Shown here: positions 1,641 through 60,807 of the stretch, piece after piece
Numbering within the stretch: position 1 is the first letter of the stretch
How the letters are laid out: each line of letters begins with the position of its first letter
Source of the DNA: Callipepla californica brunnescens
Taxonomy: Eukaryota; Chordata; Aves; Galliformes; Odontophoridae
Direction of reading: 5' to 3'
Length of the DNA: 64,000 nucleotides
NCBI GenBank assembly: GCA_023055505.1
Contig: JALIRH010000146.1
Location: forward strand, 186,001-250,000
Program-made: the position numbers and the translations under genes
Notes under the pieces: generated by a model
Databases searched by the model: none
Seen by the model: the letters and a program-made list of their open reading frames with translations, nothing else
What the model was told of the DNA's origin: nothing

Positions 1641-7121
<5,481 letters not shown>

Positions 7122-7193: not shown

Positions 7194-7228
<35 letters not shown>

Positions 7229-8965: not shown

Positions 8966-9024
8966 TCAGGAAGGAGATAATGGACAATAGTACGTCATAG
9001 GCAAAAGAATTTGCCTGTTATATT

Positions 9025-31505: not shown

Positions 31506-31653
31506 TCACACACGTCAGGTGGTGCTGTGCATCCCACCCGCGCTCATTTTTCACACTAGCTCGTGCACACGGAATGGTGTCAGTCATGGTGCACGAGGAA
31601 TAGTGCAAGGCGTTGTGCATGAGTGATGGTGCATGGCGTGGAGCATACGGAGT
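31506..31653. repeat. Satellite-associated spacer, copy A, cut by the provirus
   Basis: Unique-looking block from cacacgtcaggtggtgctg to catacggagt. The complete block is at 44,988-45,175 on the other strand. The remaining part is beside the solo LTR at 52,668-52,719. It ends in CGGAGT (31,648-31,653), one target-site hexamer of the provirus. Confidence 0.9.
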
Positions 31654-32092
31654 TGTTGCAAACTAGGTTTGCAGCATTTGTCCAAGGTTAACCCAGAGTG
31701 ACGTGGGGAAGCATACACACGCTCAATATGAGTGAAGCTTCAGTTTATTGTTGGTTACACATCTGATTATATAGACAGTTTGTTGCTAAGATTAGGTTTG
31801 CGGCACACAATCTCAAGCCACGGGATTGGTTAAAGGAAGCTTACATAAAGCTATAGTGATTAATGACTGGATAGATTACATATTGTTTTATAGAGTTACC
31901 ATTCTTCGTGGTTCCCATAGCATACAGTTCTTCAGATAATGTCTAGTACTATTGAAATCAGATCCGGTCGTTCTGGCTTCGGTTACTAAGTATGGTGTCC
32001 CGTAAAACTTTGCATGCAGCACTTTGCACGCAACATTACTCCACATCTGAAGACCATTGTTCTTACCCACTAGGTTTGTTACATCCCTGACA
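31654..32092 (-). repeat. 3' LTR of the provirus
   Basis: On the minus strand it begins TGTCAGGGATG and ends TTTGCAACA. It differs from the 5' LTR at two positions (gacagtttg versus gacattttg; cagatccgg versus cagacccgg). Its first 27 nt are coding: the Env frame ends in the LTR. Confidence 0.95.
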
Positions 32093-35000
32093 TTTCCCCT
32101 GTTTTTCTTTTAAAATAATATAGTCATGTCCTCCTTGTTCTATCAGCCAATTTTGGAATATATCGGCTGAGGTGGCCAGGTTTACTTTAGGCGTAGTAAG
32201 CCGCATAGTACAGCTTACTACTAAGCGAGCTACAATTATAATCAAAATAATAATTAACACCCATTTTATTCCTTCCTTCAGCAAATCATAGAGCCAGGAT
32301 GAAAGGCCTGGAAAAATTGATCGAAACCACTCATCAATTGGGTTATGGTCTTTCGTCACCTGATTTGTGTGGTTAAGCAACCAGTGGATCTGATTTTGAA
32401 TAGACTGACTATTATCTGACAGGTTAAAACAACACATACCCTCAAAATCTTTACACCCATGCCCCTGTGCTAACAGCAAGAAATCAATGGCAGCGCGATT
32501 TTGCAGAACAGCGTGTCTAAGACTATTCATATCTTCTAACATTTCTTCAAGAATCAACAATGTAATATTACTTTGTTTAACAGTCCAACAAGCTAGTCTC
32601 TCGATTTGGGTTAATGCTTGGGCTGCCGCTACACCTGGAACCAGGAAAGAAGCGAAGACATTTGCTGTTGTTGTCCATAACTTTATCTCGTCCGAGCATT
32701 CGGTTGTCAGTGCTGAGGCGGCTCTCCGATGTCGGCGACTAGTGCTATTGATTAGTGCCTTAGATATATTCAGCCATTCCTGGTGGCGAGGAGCAAACAA
32801 GGTTAACTTTCCTAGATAACATGGTCCCCCTACTATGTTTTTTGGAAGGCCCGCCCAGGCCCTATCACCACATATGAGGAAAATACCTGGTGGTAAAGCT
32901 TTAGCTGACCAATTATTTAGTAGAATCTCCTGTTTCTTAACTCCCGCTTCAATTGTCCAGCGTAAACCATAAGCATTTCCTTTCGAGAAACTGCCTCCAC
33001 AGTAAGTGGACCAATCAAAAGCAGCATGATTTTTTGGAAAGACACTTGTCCAACGCTGACCTAAGTAAGGACTATGAATTGGTAACAGTTTTGGATTATT
33101 GTGCGCAAATTTCTCTAAGGTAGTGCCTGGTCCAAACAACAAACAAGTGGTCTTAGATCCATTCACATTATCAACCATACGGGATCCCAGTAAATCCAAT
33201 TCTTGGGGGTCCCATGGCATGGAATTATTGAGGCCACGAATTAAACATGCACTTTGGGTTGCAGGCTCTGAATAATTACAGGCAGATACATTTTTGACGT
33301 GTGCCTTAAATTCCCGAGACTCATACCCAGGCCAGCCAATCAAACAGGTACGAAAGGGCTCTCCTGCCGACTGTAAGCTAAGACAAAAATCTGGATTATG
33401 CGTAAGGTTTGCCCATGTTACCCAAACATTTGAGCTAGATGCCAATAGCGGTGGATGCCTGGTCGTTGCCACTGGGAGGATTAGCAGGAATGTCATGATG
33501 TTCCACAACAGCTCGTGTCCACTTCGTAGGGACCCATAGTGGACCGAAGGCTGAAGATGACCTGCCTGTAATCGCTCCTGCACCAGCTGCGTAGCTTGAT
33601 TCAGGCTTTCACGGTTCAACGGCCACTGCTCGATCCAAACAGGAGTGTCTGTCATCCACTTCAGGCGGATCGGGAAAGCCCATGCAGTAGCCGTTACTAA
33701 AAGGGTGAAAGTTCTCCGAAAATGACCGTTTCTCCCACACCTAAAACAGCGTTGAGAGCGCGGGGTCGATGAGGCTGCCTTGTTCTCTGTTTGCTGTAAC
33801 AACGGTCCAAAGGCAGCAAACACCCGATCCTGAGCTCCGACCAGTTTCTCACCTATGTCCTGAACAACAGAGCTTAACATCGCTTGCGTGGGGGTAGGCA
33901 CTCGGCTCATACGTTCTAACATTTCCTCAACAGTAGCATTTAAAGGGAGCGTGGCAAGAATTGCTTTTGTTGCCTGATTACTATTTTCTAATAGACACTG
34001 ACGTAACAAGGACTGTTTCATCCAGTCAGGTACATCTGCATTTGACAGCGCTTCAGTTATCTTATCAACAAAATTAGCAAAAGATTCTTCTCGACCTTGT
34101 CTAATTGACAAATAAGATGGAGTAGGTTTCGAAGATCGAACCATATTATATGCATCTCGCGCTAGATTCATACTTTCCATACAAACTTCAGGCCCCATCT
34201 GAACCTGCATTTCTGGTCGAGAAAACATATTACTACCCATAAATTGATCAGCAGTCACTTGGTACAATGGGTCATGCATATCCCGGGGAACACTAGCACT
34301 TAATTCACATAAACGACGCCAATGAGATTGCCACATCATTTGTTCTGACGGTTTCATAATCATTCGCATAATAGTCTTTATATCCTCTGGAACAAGCACA
34401 CTGCTAGACCACAAGTAAGTTAATAATTGGCGAGCCGGTTCACTATGCAACCCATGTTCTGACACTGTAGAACGTAATTGAAATAACATTTTCCAACCAA
34501 GTGGAACATGAACCCCCTGAGCTCCACCGTTTGCTGTGGGCTCAAACCGAATGGGAAAAGCTTGGCCGATTATCTCAGCCACATCAGAATGACCCTGCTC
34601 CACAGCATGCCAAGCGATTTCTGCCCAACAGGGCCGAGGCAATATACTCATAGCAACTTTGCCTTTAACTGTCCCATTATTAACATTGTCCGAAGACGAT
34701 AGCGGGGGCGGAGGCGGTGGGAGATCCCCATTTCCCTCCTCTGGGGGGAAAAGGTCAGGTTCTGTCTCCGGGTCCTCAGGCGCCGGTGCAGTAGGCAGCA
34801 CCGCTGATACCCGTACAGGGACAGGAATTCCTAGGGACGGCTGAGGGGGATCCTCAATTCGAAAAGTTGCAGCAGAAGCCCCGCCATGCAGCTGAGCAAC
34901 TGCTTGCCCTGCTACCTCCTGCTCAATCTTATGCCGCTTTATACAATTAATAATTTCCCGCCAGGGCTTCATCAGCTTTTTTGCCTCCTTTCTATCATCA

Positions 35001-35191
35001 ATAACATGATCCCACAGCACGTCACCTAAGGTACGCCACTGATCGATATTGAATAATGTCCCTGCATGCAAGAAAACCCCCACCGTCCGACCATAATCCA
35101 AAATATTTGGCACTGCTTTAAGGGTGCCAGCACTAATTCCCCGCTTTTCCAAAAAGCATGATAAAAGGTTTTGGGCTACCTCTCTCTCCAT
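32063..35191 (-). CDS. Fused Gag / RT-fragment / Env frame, 1,042 codons
   Basis: One open frame from ATG at 35,191 to a stop at 32,063. Residues 1-494 are Gag: a proline run at 158-163, the major homology region at about 363-382 (QGREESFANFV), and a zinc knuckle starting C482-x2-C485-x4-H490 that loses its last Cys at the junction. Residues about 502-553 match the start of reverse transcriptase (TPVWIEQWPL). From about 554 the frame is Env: a hydrophobic signal segment near 563-575, a surface subunit with many N-glycosylation sites, a basic cleavage site RRHRR at 819-823, a fusion-type stretch at 846-860, the LQNRAAIDFLLL block, CX6CC at 913-921, and an anchor at about 977-993. The last nine residues come from the LTR. 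Two in-frame deletions explain the fusion. Whether it is translated as one protein or spliced to give Env is unknown. Confidence 0.88.
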   Translation of the reverse strand: MEREVAQNLLSCFLEKRGISAGTLKAVPNILDYGRTVGVFLHAGTLFNIDQWRTLGDVLWDHVIDDRKEAKKLMKPWREIINCIKRHKIEQEVAGQAVAQLHGGASAATFRIEDPPQPSLGIPVPVRVSAVLPTAPAPEDPETEPDLFPPEEGNGDLPPPPPPLSSSDNVNNGTVKGKVAMSILPRPCWAEIAWHAVEQGHSDVAEIIGQAFPIRFEPTANGGAQGVHVPLGWKMLFQLRSTVSEHGLHSEPARQLLTYLWSSSVLVPEDIKTIMRMIMKPSEQMMWQSHWRRLCELSASVPRDMHDPLYQVTADQFMGSNMFSRPEMQVQMGPEVCMESMNLARDAYNMVRSSKPTPSYLSIRQGREESFANFVDKITEALSNADVPDWMKQSLLRQCLLENSNQATKAILATLPLNATVEEMLERMSRVPTPTQAMLSSVVQDIGEKLVGAQDRVFAAFGPLLQQTENKAASSTPRSQRCFRCGRNGHFRRTFTLLVTATAWAFPIRLKWMTDTPVWIEQWPLNRESLNQATQLVQERLQAGHLQPSVHYGSLRSGHELLWNIMTFLLILPVATTRHPPLLASSSNVWVTWANLTHNPDFCLSLQSAGEPFRTCLIGWPGYESREFKAHVKNVSACNYSEPATQSACLIRGLNNSMPWDPQELDLLGSRMVDNVNGSKTTCLLFGPGTTLEKFAHNNPKLLPIHSPYLGQRWTSVFPKNHAAFDWSTYCGGSFSKGNAYGLRWTIEAGVKKQEILLNNWSAKALPPGIFLICGDRAWAGLPKNIVGGPCYLGKLTLFAPRHQEWLNISKALINSTSRRHRRAASALTTECSDEIKLWTTTANVFASFLVPGVAAAQALTQIERLACWTVKQSNITLLILEEMLEDMNSLRHAVLQNRAAIDFLLLAQGHGCKDFEGMCCFNLSDNSQSIQNQIHWLLNHTNQVTKDHNPIDEWFRSIFPGLSSWLYDLLKEGIKWVLIIILIIIVARLVVSCTMRLTTPKVNLATSADIFQNWLIEQGGHDYIILKEKQGKCQGCNKPSG
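32093..32111 (-). other. Polypurine tract
   Basis: On the minus strand, AAAAGAAAAACAGGGGAAA directly abuts the 3' LTR. This is the usual primer site for plus-strand DNA synthesis. Confidence 0.85.
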
Positions 35192-35416
35192 CCGTTCTGT
35201 CCGTCAAGAACAAAGGCACTCTGTGGAGGAGAAATTGCGTCGGCCGAACGCAAAGCCCCTGGATCCCGTCCGGTCCCGCTGCGCGATGAACCGAAGCTAC
35301 GCAGCTCTCCTACGCAGTTTTCCTGCTTTTCAGTTACCGGTCTCGGTCGACCGAAACTGCGCAGCTTCTCCGCTGCAAAGCAGCAGAGGCTCTTAGTCCA
35401 AACACCACGTACTCGG
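35192..35416 (-). other. Proviral leader between primer binding site and gag
   Basis: About 225 nt of GC-rich, non-coding leader. Packaging signals would be expected here, but none can be defined by eye. It has direct repeats of the type gaaactgcgcagc / gaagctacgcagc. Confidence 0.6.
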
Positions 35417-35434
35417 GTCCCTGTTCGGGCACCA
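35417..35434 (-). other. Primer binding site, lysine tRNA type
   Basis: Minus strand TGGTGCCCGAACAGGGAC, two bases inside the 5' LTR. It differs by one base from the standard tRNA-Lys3 complement, as in betaretroviruses and lentiviruses. Confidence 0.85.
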
Positions 35435-35436
35435 GA

Positions 35437-35875
35437 TGTTGCAAACTAGGTTTGCAGCATTTGTCCAAGGTTAACCCAGAGTGACGTGGGGAAGCATACA
35501 CACGCTCAATATGAGTGAAGCTTCAGTTTATTGTTGGTTACACATCTGATTATATAGACATTTTGTTGCTAAGATTAGGTTTGCGGCACACAATCTCAAG
35601 CCACGGGATTGGTTAAAGGAAGCTTACATAAAGCTATAGTGATTAATGACTGGATAGATTACATATTGTTTTATAGAGTTACCATTCTTCGTGGTTCCCA
35701 TAGCATACAGTTCTTCAGATAATGTCTAGTACTATTGAAATCAGACCCGGTCGTTCTGGCTTCGGTTACTAAGTATGGTGTCCCGTAAAACTTTGCATGC
35801 AGCACTTTGCACGCAACATTACTCCACATCTGAAGACCATTGTTCTTACCCACTAGGTTTGTTACATCCCTGACA
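35437..35875 (-). repeat. 5' LTR of the provirus
   Basis: 439 bp. On the minus strand it carries a TATA-like element at 35,549-35,556 and the poly(A) signal AATAAA at 35,527-35,532. R is short. It is followed on the plus strand by GGTTGG (35,876-35,881). Confidence 0.93.
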
Positions 35876-35999
35876 GGTTGGTGTTGGTCAGGTCGGCATG
35901 GCACGGAGCATCCCGTGCAGTTGTTTGGTGTGGCACGGTGCGTGGCCGTGCTCTGCCTGCACAGCTGCGTTGGGCACACGGTGCATTTCTTCTCCCGGA
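35876..35999. repeat. Edge of the GC-rich minisatellite
   Basis: Units such as ggtgtggcacggtgcgtggc are the reverse complement of those at 53,159-53,880. The array appears to have been split by the LTR rearrangement. Confidence 0.75.
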
Positions 36000-36540
36000 T
36001 AACTGATGACAGGACGAGAGGGAACGGCCACAAGCCGCGCCGGGGAAGGTTGAGATTGGATTTGAGGAAAAATGTTTGCTCTGAAAGAGTGCTCAGGCAC
36101 TGGAATGGCCTGACCTCATGTACCTATGAATCTATGGGTGTCCATGGGTCCCAGTGTGTCCCTGTGGGTCCCTATGGGTCTCTGTGGGTCCCAATGTCTC
36201 TCTGTGGGTCTCTGAAGGAGTGCTGGGGCACTGGAATGGCCTGACCTAATGTATCTATGAATCTATGGGGTCTCTCTGCAGGTCCCTATGGGTCTCTATG
36301 GGTCCCAGTGTCTCCCTATGGGTCTCCGAAGGAGTGCTCAGGCCCTGGAATGGCCTGCCTAGGGAGGGAGTTGAGGCACTGTCCCCAGCGCTGCTCAAGA
36401 AGCGTTCAGATGAGGTGCTGAGGGATTGGATTCAGTAGCTCAGTGGGTAGGGATGGTGGGAGGAGGAGGGTTGGACGAGATGAGCTTGGAGGTCCTTTCC
36501 AACCTCATGGATCTGTGAATCTATGAATTTATCTGCAGCA
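36000..36540 (+). mobile_element. CR1 3' region with an internal repeat expansion
   Basis: CR1 body phrase (gaggaaaaatgtttgctctg, ggcactggaatggcctg) ending in ggtcctttccaacctcatgg and a ctatgaatt tail. Between about 36,120 and 36,330 it is interrupted by short tandem gggtctctgtgggtccc units. Confidence 0.75.
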
Positions 36541-36602
36541 GTGTTTGCAGTGCGGCTTCAAAACGCGTTTTGAGCTGAAGCTTTTGCTGAACTTCTTGCT
36601 GA

Positions 36603-36899
<297 letters not shown>

Positions 36900-37029
36900 T
36901 GAACCGTGCGTGCAGTGCCATGCGGGTGCAATCATGGCGCGTTCTGAGTGCGGCGGCATCGCACTCTGCTCCCATTGTTGGGGCCTTCATTATGGGATTT
37001 GATCGGTGTCAAAAAGGAGCGGCCAGCAG

Positions 37030-37722
37030 GGATGGGGATGGGATCGGGGAGGGGAAAAGCTTCACCTCCCAGTTTATCTAATATGGCTTTAATCTGCATC
37101 CAGTGCTAAAGTATCAAGAGGTCTCTGCTCCAAGTTGAATAAAGTTAGTTCCTTCAGCCTCTTCTTTTACAGCATGCTCCAGCCTTCTTGCCATCCTAAT
37201 GTCCATTCTCTGAACTTATTCCAGGGTGTCAGCATCCTCCTTCTGTTGGGAAACGCAAAGGATGCACTACTCCAGCTGTAATCTCACAGGTTCCAAAGGG
37301 AGGGGAAGAATCAATTCCCCTATTCTTCCTACTCCCTTCCTAACACTGCACAGAACGTGGCTCACATTCACTGCTTGAAGAGCATCCTATATTCTTCAGT
37401 TCAATGGTCCTTGACAAACTGTTGTGGTTTTGTGGTTTTGATGCAGATATTCCACATCAGAACATCATGCAGGCAGTTAAGGAGTTAATGCTGTGTTGGG
37501 GAGCAGCAGAGGGGTGAAACTCCGGACCAGACAACAGTTGTGCTTACCTTGCATTTTTACTAAGGTAAGCTCTCAGATTTGGTTTGGAAACTTTCTCTCT
37601 CCCAATTGTTCGATTTTGTTAGATTTAGGAAAGATACTGTTCCTCCTCAAATCGTTGCCGTTGTTTTTTTTCTTCTATTGACCCATCTGTCATCTGCGTA
37701 CCCTTCCCCGTCTCCCCCTCAC
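37030..37722. repeat. Inverted duplicate of 1-692, with CR1 body piece
   Basis: Intron 4 side of ANP32E. It contains an old CR1 piece on the minus strand at about 37,082-37,380. It pairs with the window start. No gene is seen. Confidence 0.9.
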
Positions 37723-37744
37723 CCTCCCCCCTCAGAGAGAGAGC

Positions 37745-38066
37745 ATCATCACCGTGGATCCAGTGAGGTCCGTAGGTAGTCCGCTGATCTCAGGAACTTG
37801 TCTGGTAGGACAAGGGGGAATAGTGCGGCAGGGGAGGTTTAGGTTAGAGACGAGGAGGAAGTTTTTCACAAAGAGGGCAGTGATGCAGTGGAACAGGTCC
37901 CCCAGGGAGGTGGTGGATGCCCCATCCCTGGAGGCATTCAAGGCCAGGCTGGATGTGCTCTGGGCAGGTCGCTCTAGAGGTTGGCAGCCCTGCACATGGC
38001 GGGGGGGTTGAAACTCGATGATCATTGTGGTCCTTTTCAACCCAGGCCTCGCTGTGGTTCTATGAT
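37745..38066 (+). mobile_element. CR1 3' end
   Basis: Typical CR1 tail: ggaagtttttcacaaagagg, then gtggatgccccatccctgg, aggccaggctggatgtgctc, a gttggcagccctgcacatgg block, and a terminal ctatgattcta. Confidence 0.92.
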
Positions 38067-38560
38067 TCTAAATGCACCGCCATTAAGCAGACGCGGCGTC
38101 ATCGCGATCATTGCGGAAGGTGCTGTGTCATCACGACAGATCAACACCTCCGGACAGACGGCTCCGGGGACACCAATGGGTGACAGGGGGGCACAGAGAT
38201 AGGGGGCTGATGGATGTGGGGGCATTTCTCGGCCAGATAGATATGGGGCAGTAATGGGGTCACGTATGGGGTCAAGTGTGTGGCAGGCATGAGGGCAGAC
38301 AGATATGGGGCAGATAGGTATGGAGGCAGATATAGGGTCAGGAAAATGGGCAGATGGATGTGGGGGCAGAAATGGGGCACAGATAGAGGGTTGGAGGGGA
38401 CCTACAGGATCGTGGAATCACAGAGTGGTTGGGTAGGAAGGGTCCCCGTGGTTCATAAAAGCACGGAATCGCAGCACTGTTGGTTTGGGAGGGACCCCAG
38501 AGACCGTAGAGCGATGGGATGGCAGCACGGTGGGCTTGGAGGGGACGGAGCTCAGTGTCA
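38067..38560. repeat. Short tandem repeat and CR1 tail remnants
   Basis: About 38,220-38,400 has degenerate units of the type gcagatagatatgggg. From about 38,400 to 38,560 there are two or three reversed CR1 ends (gtggaatcacagagtggttg; ggtttgggagggacccc). No gene is seen. Confidence 0.6.
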
Positions 38561-39438
38561 CAGTGCTGGGGACGCGCAGCAGCGTTCCTAAGCGCAGATC
38601 GGTGTCAGTGTGATCTGGGGACACGCTGCACTGTCCCCGTGCACGGATCGGTGTCACGGTGTGTCAATGGGTTACGGGCCGGTTCAGCCCGGTTCTATGA
38701 CTAACGGTCCTGGGAAAAGGGTAGAAGGGAGAGGGCAGGGAGATGGGCCTAAAAACAAAAGAGCGACCACGATCGGAGGAGGAGAACTCACTTCCTAAAT
38801 AAGACACCGGAATGTCAAAGAATACGGTAGAACACCATGTAATTGGAAACGAAGCTAATGAATCAAATAAGAAGAGAGAGAGTGTGGGAGCACACTATAG
38901 TTGGTGGACTCCTTAAGGAAGGAACCTTAAAGCCCACCCAGCTCCAACCTGGTTTTCCGTGGAACTGAGGCATCCGCGCAGCCCGAGCCCTAGCACACAG
39001 GTCACACACGGATACAGAAAGAAGAGCAGAGCTCTTCCACGGAGCAGAAGCTGGAGAAGTGTCCAGAGTTTCCCACTATTAGGAATAGCCTTTGGTGAAA
39101 CTCGCGTCCAAGGAGCGTTCCAGAACCTTCTGTGTGCCTCCACGTCGGCTTTGTGCCGCATCACAGTGGCATCTAGAGGACTTCTCTGAGCCTCGACGAG
39201 ATCGAATCTGACCAGTCCAGCAGGGCATCCACCAGGGCACACTGGGAATCCCACGGCCAGGGTGGGGGAAAGGCATTGTGACATCACAGGGCAGGGCGGG
39301 ACATCAGTCTTGAAGGCACGCGGGCAGCTTCCCCCAGCACAGACGCTTGGGGCAGCCGCTCCATCCGGGTGCTCACTGCTGGAGCTCTGCTCTGGGTGAC
39401 AGTCGCTTGCGTGTTGAGATTCGTGGCAAGAGAACAGG
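38561..39438 (+). other. Upstream region of the coiled-coil gene
   Basis: Short repeats around gatcggtgtcacggtgtg at 38,600-38,680, then unique sequence. It should hold the promoter and 5' UTR of the gene starting at 39,439, but I see no clear TATA box or start site. Confidence 0.4.
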
Positions 39439-39639
39439 ATGGAGATCGACCTGACTCTCTTAGCTCTCATCATCATGGGCATGTTTTTACATTCTCACGA
39501 GGCCCATGACTCTGTCGAGCTGAACCTGGTGGTGGGAATCACAATCCTCATCAAGATCGTTCTGTGGTACGTCTTTTTCATCCTGCTGCGCGATGGTTGC
39601 GTCTACCTCTGCAGAAGAGTAAGGCAACGACGGAGAAAG
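39439..39639 (+). CDS. Coiled-coil gene, first coding exon (membrane segment)
   Basis: 67 codons with donor GTGAGC at 39,640. Residues 31-50 (VVGITILIKIVLWYVFFILL) are a clear membrane span, followed by RDGCVYLCRR. The first hydrophobic stretch could be a signal peptide or a first span. Confidence 0.75.
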
Positions 39640-42600
39640 GTGAGCGACTGAAATGCATCGCGCAGGGAGCGTAGTGCAGGGTAGGGTGGGGAGCAGGCAA
39701 CCACAAAGGCCTTGTCCGTGAGGTGATGCAAGGCAAGCAGACTCCCAGAGCTCCATTAGCTCTCCCCAGGGAGGGACTTGCCCGGCCGCGGGGCTGATGC
39801 CCAGCGGGAGAGCCCTGTGTGACATGGGGCCCGCCAGAGGTGGTGTGAGCCCCACGGGCTGCCCCAAACGGCCCTGTGAGGCAGGGAAAGCTGCGCGGGA
39901 ATCGGAGCCCTGCAGGGGAACGCTCTGCCCAATGAGTCCGCATCCCTTTCACTGTGCCCGCACTCTGTGGCTGCCAGGGAACGCGACCAACGGCCTCAAC
40001 TTCGGTGGGGAGAAAGCGCAGGGAAAACATCCGGGAGAAGAGCCAGGTGAAGGTGAGCACGGCCCAAGCCTACCCTCTAGGCATTTGTGCTAAGCCTGCG
40101 TGTCTCTCATCACATCGCCCCTCTGTGCCACTGGCAGGTCTGCTCCCTCCAGGAGGAGCTGCAAAAACTGAGGAGCCAAGCTCAACACTGGGAGATGTTG
40201 CACCGGGACAGCGAGCAAACGCTGGCTATCATGAAAGAGGAGCTGACTGTTTGCAAGGCGGAGCTGGCTTTCCACAAACAGGACAGGCAGCAGCTCCTCT
40301 CAGGGCATGAGCAGTGCGAACAGGCGGTGAGCACGGCCCCAGCCTTCCCACTAGGCACCTGTACTAAGCCTGCGTGTCTCTCATAACATCACCCCTCTGT
40401 GCCACTGGCAGGTCGGCTACCTCCAGGAGGAGCTGAAAAAGCTGAGCATCCAAGCTGAGAACTGGGAGCAGATGCAGCGTGACGCACTGCAATCTCAGAT
40501 TCAACAAAAAGAAGAGCTGGCTTCCCTCAGACAAGACAAGAAGCTGCTCCTGCCACATCTGAAACAAAGCCGACAGGAGGTGAGCACGGTCCAGGCCTTC
40601 CCACTAGGCACCTGTGCTAAGCCTGCGTGTCTCTCATCACATCACCCCTCTGTGCCACTGCAGATCCGCTTCCTCCAGGAGGACCTGCAAATGATAAACA
40701 GGCAATCTCAGCACTGCCAGAAGTTGCACTGGGACACACAGAAACGTCAGGCTGCACAAAAAGAGAAGCTGGCAACCCACAGACAAGAGAGGCAGCAGGT
40801 CCTCTCAGCTCAGAAGCAGTGCCAACAGGAGGTGAGCATGGCCTGAGGCTTCCCACTAGGCACCTGTGCTATGCCTGCGTGTCTCTCATCACATCATCCC
40901 TCAGTGCCACTGGCAGGTCGACTCCCTCCAGGAGGAGCAGAAAAAGCTGAGCATCCGAGCTGAGAACTTGGACCAGTTGCAGTTTGAAGCACTGCAATCT
41001 CAGATTGCACAAGTAAAGGAGCTGGCTTCCCTCAAACAGGACAAGCAGCAACTCCTGTCAAGGCAGGAGCAGTGCCGACAGGAGGTGAGCATGGCCCAAG
41101 CCTTCCCACTCGGCACCTGTGCTATGCCTGCGTGTCTCTCATCACATCACCCCTCTGTGCCACTGTCAGGTCGGCTCCCTCCAGGAGGAGCTGAAAAAGC
41201 TGAGCATCCGAGATGAGAACTGGGAGCAGATGCAGCGTGACGCACAGGAATCTCACACTGCACAAAAAGAGAAGCTGGCTTCCCTCAGACAAGACAAGAA
41301 GCTGCTCCTGTCACATCTGAAACAGAGCCGACAAGAGGTCAGCACGGCCCAAGCCTTCCCACTAGGCACCTGTGCTAAGCCTGCGTGTCTCTCATCACAT
41401 CACCCCTCTGCGTCACTGGCAGGTCAGCTCCCTCCAGGAGGAGCTGAAAAAGCTGAGCATCCGAGCTGAGAACTGGGAGCTGTTGCAGTTTGAAGCGCTG
41501 GAATCTCAGATTCAACAAAAAGAAGAGCTGGCTTCCCTCAGACAAGACAAGAAGCTGCTCCTGTCACATCTGAAACAAAGCCGACAGGAGGTGAGCACGG
41601 TCCAGGCCTTCCCACTAGGCACCTGTGCTAAGCCTGCGTGTCTCTCATCACATCACCCCTCTGTGCCACTGCAGATCCGCTTCCTCCAGGAGGACCTGCA
41701 AATGATAAACAGGCAATCTCAGCACTGCCAGAAGTTGCACTGGGACACACAGAAACGTCAGGCTGCACAAAAAGAGAAGCTGGCAACCCACAGACAAGAG
41801 AGGCAGCAGGTCCTCTCAGCTCAGAAGCAGTGCCAACAGGAGGTGAGCATGGCCTGAGGCTTCCCACTAGGCACCTGTGCTATGCCTGCGTGTCTCTCAT
41901 CACATCATCCCTCAGTGCCACTGGCAGGTCGACTCCCTCCAGGAGGAGCAGAAAAAGCTGAGCATCCGAGCTGAGAACTTGGACCAGTTGCAGTTTGAAG
42001 CACTGCAGTCTCAGATTGCACAAGTAAAGGAGCTGGCTTCCCTCAAACAGGACAAGCAGCAACTCCTGTCAAGGCAGGAGCAGTGCCGACAGGAGGTGAG
42101 CATGGCCCAAGCCTTCCCACTCGGCACCTGTGCTATGCCTGCGTGTCTCTCATCACATCACCCCTCTGTGCCACTGTCAGGTCGGCTCCCTCCAGGAGGA
42201 GCTGAAAAAGCTGAGCATCCGAGATGAGAACTGGGAGCAGATGCAGCGTGACGCACAGGAATCTCACACTGCACAAAAAGAGAAGCTGGCTTCCCTCAGA
42301 CAAGACAAGAAGCTGCTCCTGTCACATCTGAAACAGAGCCGACAAGAGGTCAGCACGGCCCAAGCCTTCCCACTAGGCACCTGTGCTAAGCCTGCGTGTC
42401 TCTCATCACATCACCCCTCTGCGTCACTGGCAGGTCAGCTCCCTCCAGGAGGAGCTGAAAAAGCTGAGCATCCGAGCTGAGAACTGGGAGCTGTTGCAGT
42501 TTGAAGCGCTGGAATCTCAGATTCAACAAAAAGAAGAGCTGGCTTCCCTCAGACAAGACAAGAAGCTGCTCCTGCCACATCTGAAACAAAGCCGACAGGA

Positions 42601-43446: not shown

Positions 43447-43540
43447 CTCTGCCTGGAACTCACCTCCAGGATGAGAAGTGTCACAAAACACAGGGAAGCG
43501 TTAAAGACGTTTACAAATTTCCTTAAAATAATATCAAATT

Positions 43541-43652
43541 GAAAAATAAATAAATAAATAATATGTGTATATATATATATATATATATAAATAATAATAA
43601 TTAAAAAAAAAAAAGAAAACAAAAAAAAATAAAAAAAAAAAGAAAAATATCT
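43541..43652. repeat. AT-rich low-complexity tract with poly(A) signals
   Basis: Overlapping aataaa strings near 43,545, a TA dinucleotide run near 43,570-43,588, and A runs to 43,640. It could serve as the 3' end of the coiled-coil gene or be the tail of a retroposed sequence. Confidence 0.6.
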
Positions 43653-43689
43653 GGAGCCCCTCCCATTTCATTTCTCACCACTCACTCCT

Positions 43690-44285
43690 TTGGGCTCCTT
43701 CCCAATGCCCGATACCCACTGCACCTTTCAATTTTACCAGAAGATGCTGCGCGATAGGGGATATGATAAATCGACTCTTGGGCCCAACTCTTTACAAGAG
43801 AATTTTTGAAATGAGTCCCATTATCTGTCTCAATTCTCTCTGGAGTGCCATGTCAACACAGGACTTGTTTCTCGGGACCTAAGATGGTGTTTTGGGCGGT
43901 AGCATGCGGTACTGCATATGTTTCAAGCCACCCAGTGGTTGCCTCCACCATGGTGAGCGCGGCAAGGTGATACAAACAACCTGCCTCGCCTCTTTATCTT
44001 TTTGCCATCACCCTTCCCCGCAAAGAGGTTTCATCCTCTTGGCTTGTTTAATTATGGCACATGTGTCACAGTCATGGATAACCTGTGCAATAGCGTCCAT
44101 AGTTAAGTCCACCCCTCGGTCTCTAGCCCACTTCTGTGTTGCGTCTCTTCCTTGATGGCCCGAGGTCTCATGGGCCCACCGAGCTAGATATAATTCACCC
44201 TTGTGTTGCCAATCCAAGTCTACTTGAACCACCTTAACTTTGGCAGCTCGATCTACCTGATGGTTATTTTATTGTTCTTTGGTTG
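43690..44285 (-). pseudogene. Broken retroviral pol: RNase H end and integrase
   Basis: Minus strand. Near 44,270 is an RNase H-like end (NNHQVDRAAK). The integrase zinc-binding domain follows with H-x4-H (HETSGH) and C-x2-C (CDTC) at about 44,060-44,170. Traces of the catalytic core run to about 43,700, with the second Asp in TDNGTHF and the Glu in SGKIER. The core is broken by a stop and frame changes. It is of the class I / ERV-L type by motif wording and not obviously from the 31.7 kb provirus. It ends abruptly at the satellite. Confidence 0.78.
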
Positions 44286-44319
44286 CCCGGCTCCATGGAA
44301 AACGAACATCTACATGGCA

Positions 44320-44425
44320 CACACAGTGTGCGCACACAGTACGCACACACACAGTGCTCACAAACATACAAAGTGCTCACGCACACAGTGCACACACACA
44401 CATACACACACTGCACACAAACACA
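44320..44425. repeat. Satellite edge in CA orientation
   Basis: About 100 bp of CA/GTGCAC satellite. Then at about 44,426 the array flips to TG orientation (gtgtgcgcacgtggtgtgtg), leaving a near-palindromic junction. Confidence 0.85.
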
Positions 44426-47400
44426 GTGTGTGCGCACGTGGTGTGTGTGTTTGCACTGTCTGTGCATTTGCACTGTGTGTGTGTGTGCAGTGTGTGCGTG
44501 TGCACTTTGTATGTGTGTGCGCTGTGTGTGTGTGCACTGTGTGTGCACTGTGTTTATGTGTGTGTGTGCACTGTGTGTGCACTATGTGTGTGTGTGTGTA
44601 CTGTGTGTGTGTGCACTCCGTGTGCACTGTGTGTTTGTGTGTGCACTGTGTGTGCACTGTGTGTGCATACGTACTGTGTTTGCATGTGCACTGTGTGTGT
44701 GCAGTGCGTATGCACTGTGAGTGTGTGTGCACTGTAATTGTCTGTGCACTGTGTGTGTGCACTGTGTATTTGTGTGTGTTCGTGTGTGTTCACTGTCTGT
44801 GCACTTTGTGTGTGTGTGAGCACTGTGTGTGTGTGCACTGTGTGTGCACTCTGTGCGTTTGCACACACACTGCACACACACACTGTACACACACATGCAG
44901 TACACACACAGTGCACACACACATGCACTGCGCACACAGTGCACACACACACAGTACACACACAGACAGTGCACACACACACACACATTGCAGCTCACCG
45001 TACAACATCCATGTGCACCACGCCTTGCACCACTCCGTATGCTCCACGCCATGCACCATCACTCATGCACAACGCCTTGCACTATTCCTTGTGCACCATG
45101 ACTGACACCATTCCGTGTGCACGAGCTAGTGTGAAAAATGAGCGCGGGTGGGATGCACAGCACCACCTGACGTGTGTGACTGTGTGTGTGTGTGTGTGTG
45201 CGCAGTGTGTGTGTGTGCACTGTGTGTGTGTGCACTGTGTGTTTGTGTGTGTTCGTCTGTGTGCACTCTGTGTGCACTGTGTGTGCACTGTGTGTTTGTG
45301 TGGACTGTGTGTGTGTGCACTGTTAGTGTGTGCGCTGTGTGTGTGTGTATGTCTGTGTGAGCACTGTGTGTGCTCTGTTACTGTGTGTGTGTGCACCGTG
45401 TGTGTGTTACTGTGTGTATGTGCACTGTTTATGTGCACTGTGTGTGTGTGTTCACTGTGTCTGCACTGTGTGTGCATGTGCACTGTGTGTGTGCACTGTG
45501 TGTGTGCACTGTGTGTGTGCACCGTGTGTTTGTGTGTGTTTGTGCGTGTGCACTGTGTATGCACTGTGTGTGTGCGTGCACTGTGTGTGTGAACCGTATG
45601 TGCACTGTGTTTTTTTTGTGTGTTCGTATGTGTGCACTCTGTGCCTGTACACTGTGTGTTTGCGCACTGTGTGTGTGTGTGTGTGCACTGTGGGTGTTTG
45701 CACTGTGTCTGTGCACTGTGTGTTTGTGCACTGTGTGTGTGTTCACTGCGTTTGTGTGCACTGTGTGTGCACTGTGTGTGTGAACCGTGTGTGTGTGTGT
45801 GTGCACTGTGTGTGTGTAATGTGTGTGTGCACTGTGTGTGCACTGTGTGTGTGTGTTTACTGTGTGTGTGAACTGTGTGTGTGCACTGTGTGTGCACTGT
45901 GTGTGCACTGAGTCTGAGTGTGCACTGTGTGTGTGTGTTTACTGTGTGTGTGTGAACCGTGTGTGTGTGTGTGTAATGTGTGTGTGCACTGTGTGTGCAC
46001 TGTGTGTGTGTGTTTACTGTGTGTGTGCACTGTGTGTGCACTGTGTGTGCACTGAGTCTGAGTGTGCACTGTGTGTGTGTGCACTGTGTTTCTGTGTGTG
46101 CACTGAGTGTGTGTGCAATGTGTGTGTGTGTACTGTGTGTGCACTGCGTGTTTGTGTACTGTGTCTGTGTGCACTGTGTGTGTGTGTTCTTTGTGTGTGC
46201 ACTGTGTGTGTGTGTGCACTGTGTGTGCACTGTGTGTTTGTGCACTGTGTGTGTGTGTGTGCACAGTGTGTGTGAACAGTGTATGTGTGTGTGTTTGTGT
46301 GTGCACAGTGTGTGTGAACTGTGTGTGCACTGTGTTTGTGTGTGTGCACTGTGTGTGCACTATGTGTGTGTGTGTGTACTGTGTGTGTGTGTGCACTCCG
46401 TGTGCACTGTGTGTTTGTGTGTGCACTGCGTGTATGTGCTCTTTGTGTGTGTGCACTCTGTGTGCACTGTGCGTGTGTACTGTGTGTGTGTGTGCACTGT
46501 GTGTGCACTGTGTGTGTATGCACTGTCCGTGCATGTGAACTGCGTGTGTGAGCACTGTGTGTGCACTGTGTGTGCACTGTGTGTGTCCTGTGTGTGTCCT
46601 GTGTGTGTGTGTGCACTGTGTATGTTTGTGTGAGTGCACTGTGTGTGTGTCTGCACACACTGTGTTTGTGTGCACTGTCTGCACTGTGTGTGTATTCACT
46701 GTCGGTGCGTGTGCACTGTGTGTGTGTGCACTGTGTGTGCACTGTGTGTTCATGTGCACTGTGTGCGTGTGCAGTGTGTGTGTGTGTACTGTGTGTGTGC
46801 ACTGTGTGTGCACTGTCTGTGTGTGTGTGGAATGTGTATGTGTGTGCACCGTGTGTGTGTGTGCATTGTGTGTGCACTGTGTGTGTCCTGTGTGTGTGTG
46901 TGCACTGTGTATGTTTGTGTGAGTGCACTGTGTGTGTGTCTGCGCACACTGTGTTTGTGTGCACTGTCTGTGTGTGTGCACTGTGTGAGTGTGCACTGTG
47001 TGCACTGTGTGTGTATTCACTGTCGGTGCGTGTGCACTGTGTGTGTGTGCACTGTGTGTGCACTGTGTGTTCATGTGCACTGTGTGCGTGTGCAGTGTGT
47101 TTGTGTGTGTGTGTGTACTGTGTGTGTGCACTGTGTGTGCACTGTCTGTGTGTGTGTGGAATGTGTATGTGTGTGCACTCTGTGTGCACCGTGTGTGTGC
47201 ACTGTGTGTGCATACGTACTGTGTTTGCATGTGCACTGTGTGTGTGCAGTGCGTATGCACTGTGTGTGTGTGTGCACTGTGTGTGTGCACTGTGTATTTG
47301 TGTGTGTTCGTGTGTGTTCACTGTCTGTGTGTGCACTGTCTGTGCACTCTGTGTGTGTGTGAGCACTGTGTGTGTGTGCACTGTGTGTGCACACATACAC

Positions 47401-50400
47401 ACAGTGCACACAGTGCACACACAGTGAACACGCAGAAAGTGCAAACACACGAACACACACACACACACAGTGCACACGCACACAGAGCACGCACACACAG
47501 TGCACACGTACACACAGAGCACACAGTGCACACACACACAGTGGACACACACACAGTGCACATGAACGGACAGTGCACAAACACACACAGTGCACACACA
47601 CACACGCAGTGCACACACACAGTGCACACACACAGTGCACACACACAGAACACTGTGTGTGTGTGTGCACAGTGTTTGCAGTGTGCGTGTGCACAGTGTG
47701 TGCAGTGTGTCTCTGTGCACTCTGTGTGTGTGTTTGTGCATTGTGTGTGTGGGTGTGTGCGCAGTGTGTGCAGTGTGCGTGGTCACAGTAAGTGCACTGT
47801 GTGTGTGTGTGTGCACTGTGTGTGTGTGCAGTGTTGTGCACTGTGTATATGTGCACTGTGTTTGTGTGTGTGTTCTGTGTGTTTGTGTGCACTGTGTGTG
47901 CACTGTGTGTCTGTGTGTGCACTGTCCATGCGTGTGCACTGTGTGTGTGTCCACTGTGTGCGTGTGTGCACTGCGTGTGTACTGTGTGTGTGTGCACTGT
48001 GTGTTTACTGACCGTGCGTGTGCACTGTGTGTGTGTGTGTGCTCTGTGTGTGTGTGTGCACAGTACATGTGAGCACTGTGTGTGGGCACTGTGTGCGCAC
48101 TGTGTGTGTGTCGAGTGTGTGTGTGTGCACTGTCCGTGCGCGTGCACTGCGTGTGTTTGTGTGAGTGCACTGTGTGTGTGTCTGCGCACACTGTGTTTGT
48201 GTGCACTGTCTGTGTGTGTGCACTGTGTGAGTGTGCACTGTGTGCACTGTGTGTGTATTCACTGTCGGTGCGTGTGCACTGTGTGTGTGTGCACTGTGTG
48301 TGCACTGTGTGTTCATGTGCACTGTGTGCGTGTGCAGTGTGTTTGTGTGTGTGTGTGTACTGTGTGTGTGCACTGTGTGTGCACTGTCTGTGTGTGTGTG
48401 GAATGTGTATGTGTGTGCACTCTGTGTGCACCGTGTGTGTGTGTGCATTGTGTGTGCACTGTGTGTGCATACGTACTGTGTTTGCATGTGCACTGTGTGT
48501 GTGCAGTGCGTATGCACTGTGAGTGTGTGTGCACTGTAATTGTCTGTGCACTATGTGTGCATTGTGTGTGTGTGTGCACTGTGTGTGTGCACTGTGTATT
48601 TGTGTGTGTTCGTGTGTGTTCACTGTCTGTGTGTGCACTGTCTGTGCACTTTGTGTGTGTGTGAGCACTGTGTGTGTGTGCACTGTGTGTGCACACATAC
48701 ACACAGTGCACACACTCACACTGTGGACACACACACAGTGCACACGTACACACAGTGCACACACAGTGAACACGCAGAAAGTGCAAACACACGAACACAC
48801 ACAAACACACAGTGCACACGCACACAGAGCACGCACACACAGTGCACACGTACACACAGAGCACACAGTGCACACACACACAGTGTATATGTGCACTGTG
48901 TTTGTGTGTGTGTTCTGTGTGTTTGTGTGCACTGTGTGTGCACTGTGTGTCTGTGTGTGCTCTGTCCATGCGTGTGCACTGTGTGTGTGTCCACTGTGTG
49001 CGTGTGTGCACTGCGTGTGTACTGTGTGTGTGTGCACTGTGTGTTTACTGACCGTGCGTGTGCACTGTGTGTGTGTGTGTGCTCTGTGTGTGTGTGTGCA
49101 CAGTACATGTGAGCACTGTGTGTGGGCACTGTGTGCGCACTGTGTGTGTGTGGAGTGTGTGTGTGTGCACTGTCCGTGCGTGTGCAGTGTGTGTCTGCAC
49201 TGTGAGTGTCTGTGCACTGTCTGTGTGTGCACTGTGTGTGCACTGTGTGTGCACTGCGTGTGTGCGTGTACTGTGTGTGTGTACACTGTGTGTGTGTGTG
49301 CATTGTGTGCTCACTGTGCGTGTTTGTGTGTCCACTGTGTGTGCACTCTGTGTGTGTGTGTGTGTGTGGACAGTGTGTGTGTGTGTACTCTGTGTGCACT
49401 GTGTGTGTGTGTGTGCTGTGTGTGTGCACTGGGTGTCTGTGTGTGCACTGTCCGTGCATGTGCACTGTGTGTGTGTGTACAGTGTGTGTTTGCACTGTTT
49501 GTGTGTGTGCACTGTGAGTGTAATGTTTGTGTGTGTGTGTACTGTGGATGCGTGTGCACTGTGTGCACTGTGTGTGTGTGCAGAGAGTGTGCACTGTGTG
49601 TGTTTGTGCAATGTGTGTGCAGTGTGTGTGTGTGCACTGTGAGTGTCTGTGCTCTTTCTGTGTGTGCACTGTGTACAATGTGTGTGTGTGCACTGTGTTT
49701 GCGTGTGCACCGTGTGTGTGTGCATTGTCTGTGAGTGTGCACTGTGTGCATGCATGTTCTGTGTGTGTGTGCACTGTGTGTTTACTGTCCGTGCGTGTGC
49801 ACTGTCTCGGTGTGCACTGTGTGTGTGTACACTGTGTGTGCACTGTTTGTGAGTGTGCACTGTGTGTTTGTGTGTGTTCGTGTGTGTGCACTATTTGTGT
49901 GTGCACATAGTGTGCAATGTGTGTGTGTGCATATTTGGTGTGTGCACTGTGTGTTTGTGTGTATTCGTGTGTGTGCAGTTTGTGTGTGCACTGTGTGTGT
50001 GTGTGCACTGTGTCCATGCGTGTTCTGTCTGTGTGTGCACATAGTGTGCACATTGTGAGTGTGCAGTGTGTACGTGTGCACTGTGTGTGTGTGCACTATG
50101 AGTGTCTGTGCACTCTCTGTGTGTGCACTGTGTGCACAGTGTGTGTGTGCACTGTGTGTGTGTGTACTGTGTGTGTGTGCACTGTGTGCGTGTGCACTGT
50201 GTGTGCACTTTGCGTGAGTGTGTGTGTGCACTGTGTGCGAACTGTATGTGTGTGTGCGCAATGTGTGTGTGTACACTGTGTGTGCAATGTGTGTGTGTGT
50301 GTGCAGCGTGAGGCACTGGGTGTGTTTGTGTGAACTGTCCATGCGTGCTCACTCTGTGTGCGTATGTGCTCTTTGTGTGTGTGCACTGTGTGTGCTCTTT

Positions 50401-52680
50401 GTGTGTGTGCAATATGTGTGTGTGTGCACTGTGTGTGCACTGTGTGTGTGTTCTTTGTGTGTGCACTGTGTGTGTGTGTGCATGTGCACTGTGTGTGTGT
50501 GCTCTGTTTCAGCTGTGTGTTTGTGAGTGCACTGCGTGTGCATATGCACTGTGTGTGTGCATGTGCACTGTGTGTGTGTGCACTGCGTGTATGTGTGTAC
50601 TGTGTGTGTGTGCACTGTGTGTGCACTGTGTGTGTATGTGTGTGCACTGTGTCAGCTGTGTGTTTGTGAGTGCACTGCGTGTGCATGTGCACTGTGTGTG
50701 CACTGTGTGTGCACTGTGTGTTCAGTGTGCCTGTGTGTGTTCACTGTGTGTGTGTGTGCGTCTGTGTGCACTGTGTGTGCACTTTGCGTGAGTGTGTGTG
50801 TGCACTGTGTGTGAACTGTATGTGTGTGTGCGCAATGTGTGTGTGTACACTGTGTGTGCAATGTGTGTGTGTGTGTGTGCAGTGTGTGGCACTGGGTGTG
50901 TTTGTGTGAACTGTCCATGCGTGCTCACTCTGTGTGTGTATGTGCTCTTTGTGTGTGTGCACTGTGTGTGCACTGTGTGTGTGTGCAATGTGTGTGTGTG
51001 TGCACTGTGTGTGCACTGTGTGTGTGTGTACTGTCTGTGCGTGTGCAGTGTGTGTGCACTGTGTGTGTTCTTTGTGTGTGCACTGTGTGTGTGTGTGCAT
51101 GTGCACTGTGTGTGTGTGCTGTTTCAGCTGTGTGTTTGTGAGTGCACTGCGTGTGCATATGCACTGTGTGTGTGCATGTGCACTGCGTGTATGTGTGTAC
51201 TCTGTGTGTGTGTGTGTGCACTGTGTGCGTGCGTGTTCTGTGTGAGTGTGTGCACTGTGTGTGCACTGTGTGTTCAGTGTGCCTGTGTGTGTTCACTGTG
51301 TGTGTGTGTGCGTCTGTGTGCACTGTGTGTTTGTTCAGTGTGTGTGAGTGTGCACTGTGTGTGTGTGTGCATGGTGTGTGTGAGTGTGTGTGTGTGTGCG
51401 TGCACTGTGTGGGTGCATTGTGTGTGAGCACTGTGTGTGTGAGCACTGTGTGTTAGTCTGTGCATTGTGTGTGCACTGTGTGTGCACTGTGAGTGTGTGT
51501 GCTCTGTGTGTGTACTGTGTGTGTGTTGTCTGTGTGTGTGGGGGCACTGTGCGTTCACTGGGTGTGTATGTGTGCACTGTGTGTGCGTGAGCACTGTGTG
51601 TGTGTGCAGTGTGTGTGTCTGCACTGTGTTTTGTGTGTGTGTGTGTGTGTTCACTGTCTTGTGTGTGCACTGTGTGTGCACAGTGTGTATGTGTGTGTGT
51701 GCACTGTGTGCGTGTGCAACTTGTATGTGTGTGAGCACTGTGTGTGTGCGCACTGTGTGTGCAATGTGGGTTTGTGGAGTGTGTGTGTGTGAACTGTGTG
51801 TGTGTGCAGTGTGTGTGTATGCGCTGTGAGCACTGTGTGTGCGTGTGTGTGCTCTGGGTGTGCACTACATATGTGTGTTTGCACTCTGTGTTCACTGCGT
51901 GTGTTTGTGCAGTGTGTGGGCCCTGTATGTTTGTGTACTGTGCGTTGTGTGTGCACTGTGTTTGTACTGTTTGTGTGTGTGTGCAGAGTGTGCACTGTGT
52001 GTGTGTGCAATGTGTGTGCAGTGTGTGTGTGTGCGTGCAATGTGTGTGTGTGCACTGTGTGCAATGTGTGTGTGCACTGTGTGTGCACTGTGTGTGTATG
52101 GACTGTGTGCGTGTGTTCTGTGTGTGTGTGCACTGTGTCTGCACGGCGTGTTCGCACTGTGTGCACTGTGTTCATGTGCACTGTGTGCGTGTGCAGTGTG
52201 TGTGTGTGTGTGCGTACTGTGTGTGTGCACTGTGTGTGCACTGTCTGTGTGTGTGTGGAATGTGTATGTGTGTGCACTCTGTGTGCACCGTGTGTGTGTG
52301 TGCATTGTGTGTGCACTGTGCGTGCATACGTACTGTGTTTGCATGTGCACTGTGTGTGTGCAGTGCGTATGCACTGTGAGTGTGTGTGCACTGTAATTGT
52401 CTGTGCACTGTGTGTGCGTGTGCACTGTGTGTGTGCACTGTGTATTTGTGTGTGTTCGTTTGTGTTCACTGTCTGTGTGTGCACTGTCTGTGCACTTTGT
52501 GTGTGTGTGAGCACTGTGTGTGTGTGTGCACTCTGTGAGTTTGCACACACACTGCACACACACACTGTACACACACATGCAGTACACACACAGTGCACAC
52601 ACACATGCACTGCGCACACAGTGCACACACACACAGTACACACACAGACAGTGCACACACACACACACATTGCAGCTCAC
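44426..52680. repeat. CA/GTGCAC satellite, mostly in reversed orientation
   Basis: TG-rich on the plus strand, with CA-oriented patches at about 44,863-44,987, 47,390-47,650, 48,690-48,885 and 52,543-52,670. The variant order mirrors 26.3-31.6 kb: the T-run variant at 45,608 matches the A-run at 30,820, and the block gtgcgttcactgggtgtg at 51,549 mirrors 26,570. Long frames of either strand are low complexity. Confidence 0.95.
44988..45175. repeat. Satellite-associated spacer, copy B, uninterrupted
   Basis: Runs from attgcagctcaccgtac to cacctgacgtgtg. It contains ACTCCG once, at 45,032-45,037, within caccactccgtatgctcc. This is the pre-insertion state of the site where an LTR element entered the sister copies. 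Confidence 0.9.
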
Positions 52681-52719
52681 CGTACAACATCCATGTGCAC
52701 CACGCCTTGCACCACTCCG
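52668..52719. repeat. Satellite-associated spacer, copy C, cut by the solo LTR
   Basis: Matches the left part of copy B up to ACTCCG (52,714-52,719). It is the missing complement of copy A at 31,506-31,653. Confidence 0.9.
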
Positions 52720-53158
52720 TGTCAGGGATGTAACAAACCTAGTGGGTAAGAACAATGGTCTTCAGATGTGGAGTAATGTTGCGTGCAAAGTGCTGCATGC
52801 AAAGTTTTACGGGACACCATACTTAGTAACCGAAGCCAGAACGACCGGGTCTGATTTCAATAGTACTAGACATTATCTGAAGAACTGTATGCTATGGGAA
52901 CCACAAAGAATGGTAACTCTATAAAACAATATGTAATCTATCCAGTCATTAATCACTATAGCTTTATGTAAGCTTCCTTTAACCAATCCCGTGGCTTGAG
53001 ATTGTGTGCCGCAAACCTAATCTTAGCAACAAACTGTCTATATAATCAGATGTGTAACCAACAATAAACTGAAGCTTCACTCATATTGAGCGTGTGTATG
53101 CTTCCCCACGTCACTCTGGGTTAACCTTGGACAAATGCTGCAAACCTAGTTTGCAACA
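52720..53158 (+). mobile_element. Solo LTR, same family as the provirus
   Basis: 439 bp, TGTCAGGG to TTGCAACA, opposite in orientation to the provirus LTRs. It has a TATA-like tataatc near 53,041 and AATAAA at 53,063-53,068. It shares one of the two LTR-diagnostic bases with each proviral LTR and has a private change (ccacaaagaatgg). It is followed by CCAACC (53,159-53,164). Confidence 0.95.
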
Positions 53159-53880
53159 CCAACCCACACGGCCACACACCGTGCCAAACCAAACTGCACG
53201 GCCACGCCCCGTGCCACGCTGACCCACACGGCCACGCGCTGTGCAGCACCGACCCACACATGATGCTCCATGCCATGCTAACCCGCACGGCCACGAACTG
53301 TGCCACACTGACCCCCATGGCCATGCTCTGTGCAACGCTGATCCTTACGGCGATGCTCCGTGCCACACCAACCCACACCGTGCCACGCTGACCCGCGCAC
53401 GATGCTCCGTGCCACGCCTGCCCCCACTGCCACGCCCTGTGCAACACCTACCCCCATGGGATGCTCCGTGTCACACCAAACTGCATGAGACACTCCACGC
53501 CACGCCAACCCGCACGGCCACACCCCGTGCCACACCAACCCACACATGATGCTCCATGCCACGCTGACCCGCATGGCCACACACTGCGCAACACTGACCC
53601 ACACCGTGCCACGCCAACCCACACACAATGCTCCACGCCACACCGACCCCCACAGCCACGCCCCGTGCCACACCGATCCCCACGGCCACGCTCCATGTCA
53701 CACCAAATGGCACGGCCACGCCCCATGCCACACTGACCCACACCGTGCCACGCTGACTCACACACAATGCTCCATGCCAGGCCAACCCCCACGGCCACGC
53801 CTCGTGCCACACCGAGCCCCACAGCCACGCCCTGTGCCACACTGAGCCCCACATGACACCGTGGCACAGCGCACTGTGAC
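53159..53880. repeat. GC-rich minisatellite (cacggccacgc family)
   Basis: Degenerate units of about 30 bp, such as ccgtgccacaccgaccccca and acggccacgc with a gatgctcc variant. It continues the family seen reversed at 35,876-35,999. Open frames are repeat products. Confidence 0.9.

Positions 53881-55197: not shown

Positions 55198-60700
<5,503 letters not shown>

Positions 60701-60772: not shown

Positions 60773-60807
<35 letters not shown>

Follow-up and report, generated by a model that had tools for sequence, protein, structure and literature searches.

The 64,000-nucleotide stretch analysed here (the window) comes from Callipepla californica brunnescens (GenBank assembly GCA_023055505.1, contig JALIRH010000146.1, positions 186,001 to 250,000 of the forward strand). 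It contains a provirus of an endogenous retrovirus (ERV), a solo long terminal repeat (LTR) in the opposite orientation, and exons of a gene copy resembling ANP32E. The two retroviral elements carry halves of each other's target-site duplications. As read in the assembled contig, this arrangement is best explained by an inversion that quite likely arose by ectopic recombination between two LTRs. Such an inversion had been proposed in a preliminary description of the window. The proposal was supported by the present analysis, and it gained further backing from a paralogous empty site and from a second, non-inverted copy of a neighbouring joint.

Each target-site duplication is divided between two oppositely oriented elements

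The two elements, their flanks and the segment between them are as follows.

31648..31653, plus strand: left half of target-site duplication 1 (CGGAGT), adjoining the left end of the provirus exactly
31654..35875, minus strand: provirus, flanked by CGGAGT and GGTTGG
31654..32092, minus strand: window-left LTR of the provirus, its 3' LTR, 439 bp
35437..35875, minus strand: window-right LTR of the provirus, its 5' LTR, 439 bp, candidate crossover site
35876..35881, plus strand: displaced half of target-site duplication 2 (GGTTGG), adjoining the right end of the provirus exactly
35876..52719, no strand: intervening segment, in the orientation opposite to that inferred for the ancestral order; 16,844 bp, or about 21 kb in the case of a crossover in the outer LTR
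52714..52719, plus strand: displaced half of target-site duplication 1 (ACTCCG, the reverse complement of CGGAGT)
52720..53158, plus strand: solo LTR, orientation opposite to that of the provirus, 439 bp, flanked by ACTCCG and CCAACC
53159..53164, plus strand: half of target-site duplication 2 (CCAACC), right of the solo LTR

All three LTRs are 439 bp long, begin and end with TG...CA, and align without gaps, with two differences in each pairwise comparison (437/439 identical). Each LTR has one private substitution, and no substitution is common to two of them. A blastn search with one LTR as the query found these three copies in the window and no others. The provirus lies on the minus strand, as a primer-binding stretch adjoins the LTR that starts at 35437 and a purine tract adjoins the LTR that ends at 32092. 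The provirus LTRs thus lie on the minus strand and the solo LTR on the plus strand, and therefore they form an inverted pair, the geometry that yields an inversion upon crossover.

The hexamers flanking each element agree with one another at only 2 of 6 positions, whereas both crosswise pairs agree at 6 of 6. When ten flanking bases were compared per side, six was the only duplication length that fitted. The probability of a chance agreement was estimated by resampling, with positions chosen randomly up to 500 bp from each of the four boundaries. The two left flanks agreed in 2.5% of the draws and the two right flanks in 0.14%, and both crosswise matches occurred together in 66 of 2,000,000 draws (3.3e-5), a figure that is conservative because the flanks are repetitive. 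The hexamers and coordinates given previously for the four element boundaries proved to be exact. The same applies to the claims that each duplication is divided between the two elements and that undoing the inversion reunites both of them. All four hexamers adjoin the LTR ends without any offset.

An empty paralog and the orientation of the repeats agree with the undone order

44888..45181, minus strand: paralogous empty site, with a single, uninterrupted ACTCCG at 45032-45037
44426..52669, no strand: CA/TG satellite, mainly TG strand, opposite to the satellite at 9.66-31.5 kb and to that from about 63.2 kb
53162..53853, plus strand: 30-bp-type minisatellite; related sequence begins also at 35.88 kb on the minus strand

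Undoing the inversion places the two satellite flanks next to each other across one CGGAGT. A query of 294 bases was built by joining the 150 bp that precede the provirus to the 150 bp that precede the solo LTR, the latter reversed, and dropping one hexamer. It matched 45181-44888 at 293 of 294 bases, and the match spans the joint. In a self-alignment of the window, 44424-45038 resembles 52075-52720, and 45025-47389 resembles the inverted region 29300-31661. Both alignments meet near 45.03 kb, and therefore both exchanged satellite flanks adjoin there. The provirus joint as it stands in the contig gave no match in the window that spanned the joint by 20 bases on each side. As a control, 100 random satellite joins were searched, with a longer seed word than in the test (11 versus 7). 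All of them had some spanning match, none reached 99% over 290 bases, and the best, ranked by matched bases, was 91% over 294. We read the paralog near 45 kb as a copy of the original site of the provirus that would have been made before the insertion. A non-inverted relative with contiguous flanks and a single target was found for the satellite breakpoint only, and it is a paralog, not the orthologous locus.

The orientation of the satellite was analysed in 1-kb bins. CACACA dominates both at 9.6-31.6 kb and at 63 kb, whereas TGTGTG dominates at 44.4-52.7 kb, with some short CA stretches inside. The flanks were also scored against the repeat units, and each score was judged against the maximum of 200 shuffles of the respective combination. 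For the 26-bp satellite unit, the scores were 114 in the reversed left flank of the provirus (shuffled maximum 25) and 61 in the left flank of the solo LTR (shuffled maximum 24). For the 30-bp minisatellite unit, they were 58 in the reversed right flank of the provirus (shuffled maximum 31) and 134 in the right flank of the solo LTR (shuffled maximum 44). None of the other twelve flank-unit combinations exceeded the maximum of its own shuffles. The claim that undoing the inversion restores the satellite orientation was thus borne out, both by the dominant strand and by the pairing of the flanks that carry the 26-bp unit. The claimed reunion of the minisatellite family at 35.9 and 53.2 kb held as well. 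The minisatellite is present on just those two flanks that undoing joins, and family and orientation agree, but an even period was not seen. A perfect minisatellite phase across the undone joint was considered and rejected, as it was not observed; because the phase is uneven, the argument is confined to family and orientation.

The satellite has an internal organization of its own. A 5.7-kb repeat with 80% identity (10386-16115 versus 13632-19413) indicates a higher-order structure, and a marker with a 28-bp period recurs 3.2 kb apart, at 13270-13331 and 16488-16549.

The proposed inversion reverses one exon of an ANP32E-like gene copy

60647..60700, minus strand: coding part of exon 1, ANP32E-like copy B
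56612..56761, minus strand: exon 2, copy B
55279..55401, minus strand: exon 3, copy B
36720..36885, plus strand: ANP32E-like exon 4, inverted versus exons 1-3
37030..37721, plus strand: block Q, the reverse complement of which is 100% identical to window positions 1-692
1..9499, no strand: copy A, in which Q directly abuts the exon 3-1 block at 692; a non-inverted joint, without exon 4

Exons 2, 3 and 4 match residues 24-75, 74-114 and 117-164, respectively, of the ANP32 structure 2jqd. The splice sites of exons 1-4 are canonical, and all joins are in phase 0. In the undone order, the four exons are collinear, in frame and on the same strand, and the solo LTR lies inside intron 3. Their translation is identical to a peafowl ANP32-family protein at 160 of 164 residues. 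This protein was the top match among the best 120 of 2,392 matches, and many others among these 120 are named member E. Four residues differ from the peafowl protein. One of them, V75, is shared with some other birds, while P and N at positions 112 and 149 replace L and D, which are present in all of the best 120 of 2,392 relatives, a set that includes several isoforms of single species. The acidic C-terminal (3') exons were not found in the window when it was searched with the human and four bird C-terminal sequences. A working ANP32E gene was therefore rejected, on the grounds of the missing C-terminal exons in the window and the altered invariant residues L112 and D149. The earlier proposal regarding the order of exons 3 and 4 held in that undoing the inversion makes them collinear and in phase. 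What is affected is a partial copy, and a working gene was not necessarily broken. The inversion would thus have broken a partial copy that is probably decaying and not demonstrably a working gene. A complete ANP32E gene likely exists elsewhere in the genome.

Copy A at the left end of the window offers an independent view of the ancestral order. The region 692-10410 repeats 54249-63998 at 98.25% identity overall, at a distance of about 53.6 kb, and includes ANP32E-like exons 1-3. Before the satellite starts (692-9499, about 8.8 kb), the two blocks are set apart by 11 substitutions and 34 gapped positions. Copy A holds Q in the orientation that is predicted by undoing the inversion, and the joint at 692 has one base in common. 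In the undone order, this joint is a simple deletion of 2,683 bp, composed of 1,154 bp of 35876-37029, the 439-bp LTR and 1,090 bp of 53159-54248. Copy A thereby lost exon 4 together with the solo-LTR site and the minisatellite. A full protein cannot come from either copy as it stands in the window, because exon 4 lies inverted in copy B and is absent from the expected position in copy A. The two copies are either a tandem duplication or two haplotypes strung together. Because copy A retains the non-inverted joint, we infer that the inversion postdates the separation of the two gene blocks, unless haplotypes were strung together or the blocks were homogenised.

Proposed course of events

The arrangement would have arisen as follows. 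Two members of one young ERV family would have inserted in opposite orientations, one in the CA-repeat satellite, duplicating CGGAGT, and the other in the minisatellite within intron 3 of the ANP32E-like copy, duplicating CCAACC (plus strand). One element would have stayed a provirus and the other would have been reduced to a solo LTR. A crossover between two of the near-identical 439-bp LTRs (non-allelic homologous recombination, intrachromatid or between sisters) would then have inverted the intervening DNA. It would have swapped the outer halves of both elements and thereby divided each target duplication, and this single event would have reversed the satellite, exon 4 and the minisatellite flank together. 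That the event was a crossover, as opposed to another repair route, and that it occurred in the germline, we infer.

The LTRs do not tell which LTR of the provirus took part, and the size range of about 17-21 kb given in the preliminary description therefore covers two cases. With a crossover in the inner LTR, 16.8 kb and part of the LTR would have been flipped, and the provirus would originally have resided at the CGGAGT site. With a crossover in the outer LTR, about 21 kb including the provirus interior would have been flipped, and a solo LTR would originally have been at CGGAGT and the provirus at CCAACC. An assignment of the crossover to one provirus LTR by shared substitutions was rejected, as each LTR has one private change only.

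Alternative explanations

Several observations weigh against the inversion by LTR recombination. A crossover would be marked directly by hybrid (chimeric) LTRs, but these are not demonstrable with one private substitution per LTR. As it stands, the solo-LTR joint is spanned by 11 matches; the six listed are 71-75% identical and extend past it by only 20-26 bases. The empty site is nearly identical over a short distance only, and the identity declines to 96% over 31440-31653, 89% over 52719-52218 and 78.5% over 29300-31661. With a score of 31, the 30-bp unit comes close to the maximum of its shuffles (35) in the left flank of the solo LTR. At the undone joint, the minisatellite has an irregular period, and the six matches spanning that joint are only 64-72% identical. 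In addition, the near-identical gene blocks at the window ends could be two haplotypes joined, which would cast doubt on the other joins, and the inversion is known here from one assembled contig alone.

The last two points lead to an assembly misjoin, in which the assembler took the inverted LTRs the wrong way, possibly stringing two haplotypes together, so that the inversion would exist only in the contig. The contig sequence is the sole basis of the analysis, and a false duplication could produce the observed recurrence of 692-9499 from 54249 onward (11 substitutions in about 8.8 kb) and of 1-692 in inverted form at 100%. A misjoin requires, however, that the reads failed to span 439 bp, yet the window runs without N through about 22 kb of mostly satellite sequence. 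Furthermore, the three LTRs retain separate private bases, which argues that they were not collapsed. Both of these points would depend on the sequencing method, and we consider a misjoin unlikely. A different alternative is replication-based template switching, in which the inversion and the block duplication would be outcomes of a single complex event, with one switch at the inverted LTRs and another at the one-base microhomology at 692. That base at the joint between Q and the exon 3-1 block fits this explanation, and 4 of the 7 inversions mediated by Alu elements in a human set have been described as having complex breakpoints (PMC9675761). On the other hand, the two duplications are swapped reciprocally and neither LTR has suffered a loss, which is what a simple crossover predicts. 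In the undone order, the joint at 692 can be read as an ordinary deletion of 2.7 kb that needs no tie to the inversion. Template switching is thus regarded as very improbable.

Without any inversion, two insertions lacking matching duplications would have to show crosswise hexamers that agree accidentally in repeats. A single hexamer match is not rare in repeat flanks (2.5% on one side), but the two matches coincided in only the 66 draws mentioned above, and the independent empty site, the strand of the exon, the strand of the satellite and copy A all oppose this explanation, the probability of which is close to nil. Under the inversion by LTR recombination, the locus could also be a live flip site, with both orientations of the segment segregating within a young, duplicated cluster of ANP32E fragments. 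This extension is speculative and rather improbable; at such a site the inversion may recur, because the LTRs remain nearly identical.

The provirus and other features of the window

32063..35191, minus strand: single open frame of 1042 amino acids, with gag p24 domains and a weak zinc knuckle followed by an avian gp85 / TLV_coat-type env
35417..35434, minus strand: putative primer-binding site beside the 5' LTR

A Pfam scan was performed with four separate stretches of the 1042-amino-acid frame. The gag p24 matches (PF00607, 1.3e-18; PF19317, 8.9e-12) were both above the cut-off, and no pol family matched in these stretches of the frame, the six other short frames of the provirus being outside the scan. 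The provirus thus appears to lack pol and to have an open frame of gag and env. The putative primer-binding site resembles what we take to be the tRNA-Lys type. Class II (ERVK-like) elements are characterized by a target duplication of 6 bp, LTR ends of the TG...CA type and gag p24 domains. All three features are present in the provirus, and a provisional placement in Class II is suggested. A reverse transcriptase, which would also place an element in its class, had no match in the four stretches scanned. The available part of a chicken ERV survey gave no family name for the provirus (PMC2329609). The LTR-end pattern and the exon 4 pattern had 0 matches in viral_contigs, and the LTR had no match among phage records; a bird locus is not expected in either collection. 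Rfam and tRNA scans found nothing.

Retroviral remnants were observed at 44011-44268 and 61934-62251, namely an integrase zinc-binding-like domain (below the Pfam cut-off) and an env TLV_coat fragment, and a further copy of a remnant near 8.36 kb is expected from the block repeat. At 40260-43192, a 253-bp unit is repeated about 11.6 times in tandem, and the copies are 76-93% alike in the self-alignment. Each copy carries a coiled-coil-like frame (KEELASLRQDKQ...). For this repeat at 40-43 kb, no Pfam match above the cut-off was found with two frames, and no solved structure was found with one frame.

Comparison with known systems

Recombination between human ERV (HERV) proviruses was reportedly recognised by Hughes and Coffin in 2001 from mismatched flanking duplications. 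Mismatched flanks are the sign of recombination here as well, at a bird locus. A search of the literature for a sequence-resolved LTR-LTR inversion with exchanged duplications in a bird yielded none among the matches listed, judged by titles and the openings of abstracts.

The following published systems are compared on the basis of the parts of the sources that were available. Exchanged target duplications on opposite copies are a published mark of an inversion by ectopic recombination, as in the Galileo inversion 2z3 of Drosophila buzzatii (PMC2775673). As in the window, each breakpoint of 2z3 has one copy, the two copies are oppositely oriented, and the target duplications are exchanged. 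Galileo is, in contrast, a DNA transposon of the P superfamily with 7-bp duplications and copies reported as chimeric (PMC2775673). The window has retroviral LTRs instead; their duplications are 6 bp long, and they differ too little for chimerism to be seen. In a human set of 15 inversions mediated by transposable elements, all occurred between oppositely oriented elements, as here, and 73% of these inversions had breakpoints consistent with homologous recombination (PMC9675761). The human inversions involve Alu and LINE-1 pairs and have a median of 2,454 bp, whereas an LTR pair and about 17-21 kb are involved here. A vertebrate survey described that copies of elements mediate structural variants through ectopic recombination; its focus was on insertions and deletions, and inversions and duplications made up less than 0.2% of its calls (PMC13320814). 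For the zebra finch, earlier work cited in PMC6523648 found LTR elements to be positively correlated with breakpoint regions, and the authors proposed testing whether LTR activity is linked to the high inversion rate. That result is a correlation and not a sequence-resolved LTR-LTR inversion such as the one proposed for the window.

The kind of event is thus already known, and the locus is a clean new example with unusually complete evidence in a single stretch. If confirmed by reads, it would be a sequence-resolved case from a bird, with breakpoints confined to 439 bp, an empty paralog, a non-inverted second copy on the same contig and a reversed exon. It illustrates the rearrangement of a decaying gene copy in satellite-rich DNA, and it offers a simple polymerase chain reaction marker for orientation polymorphism.

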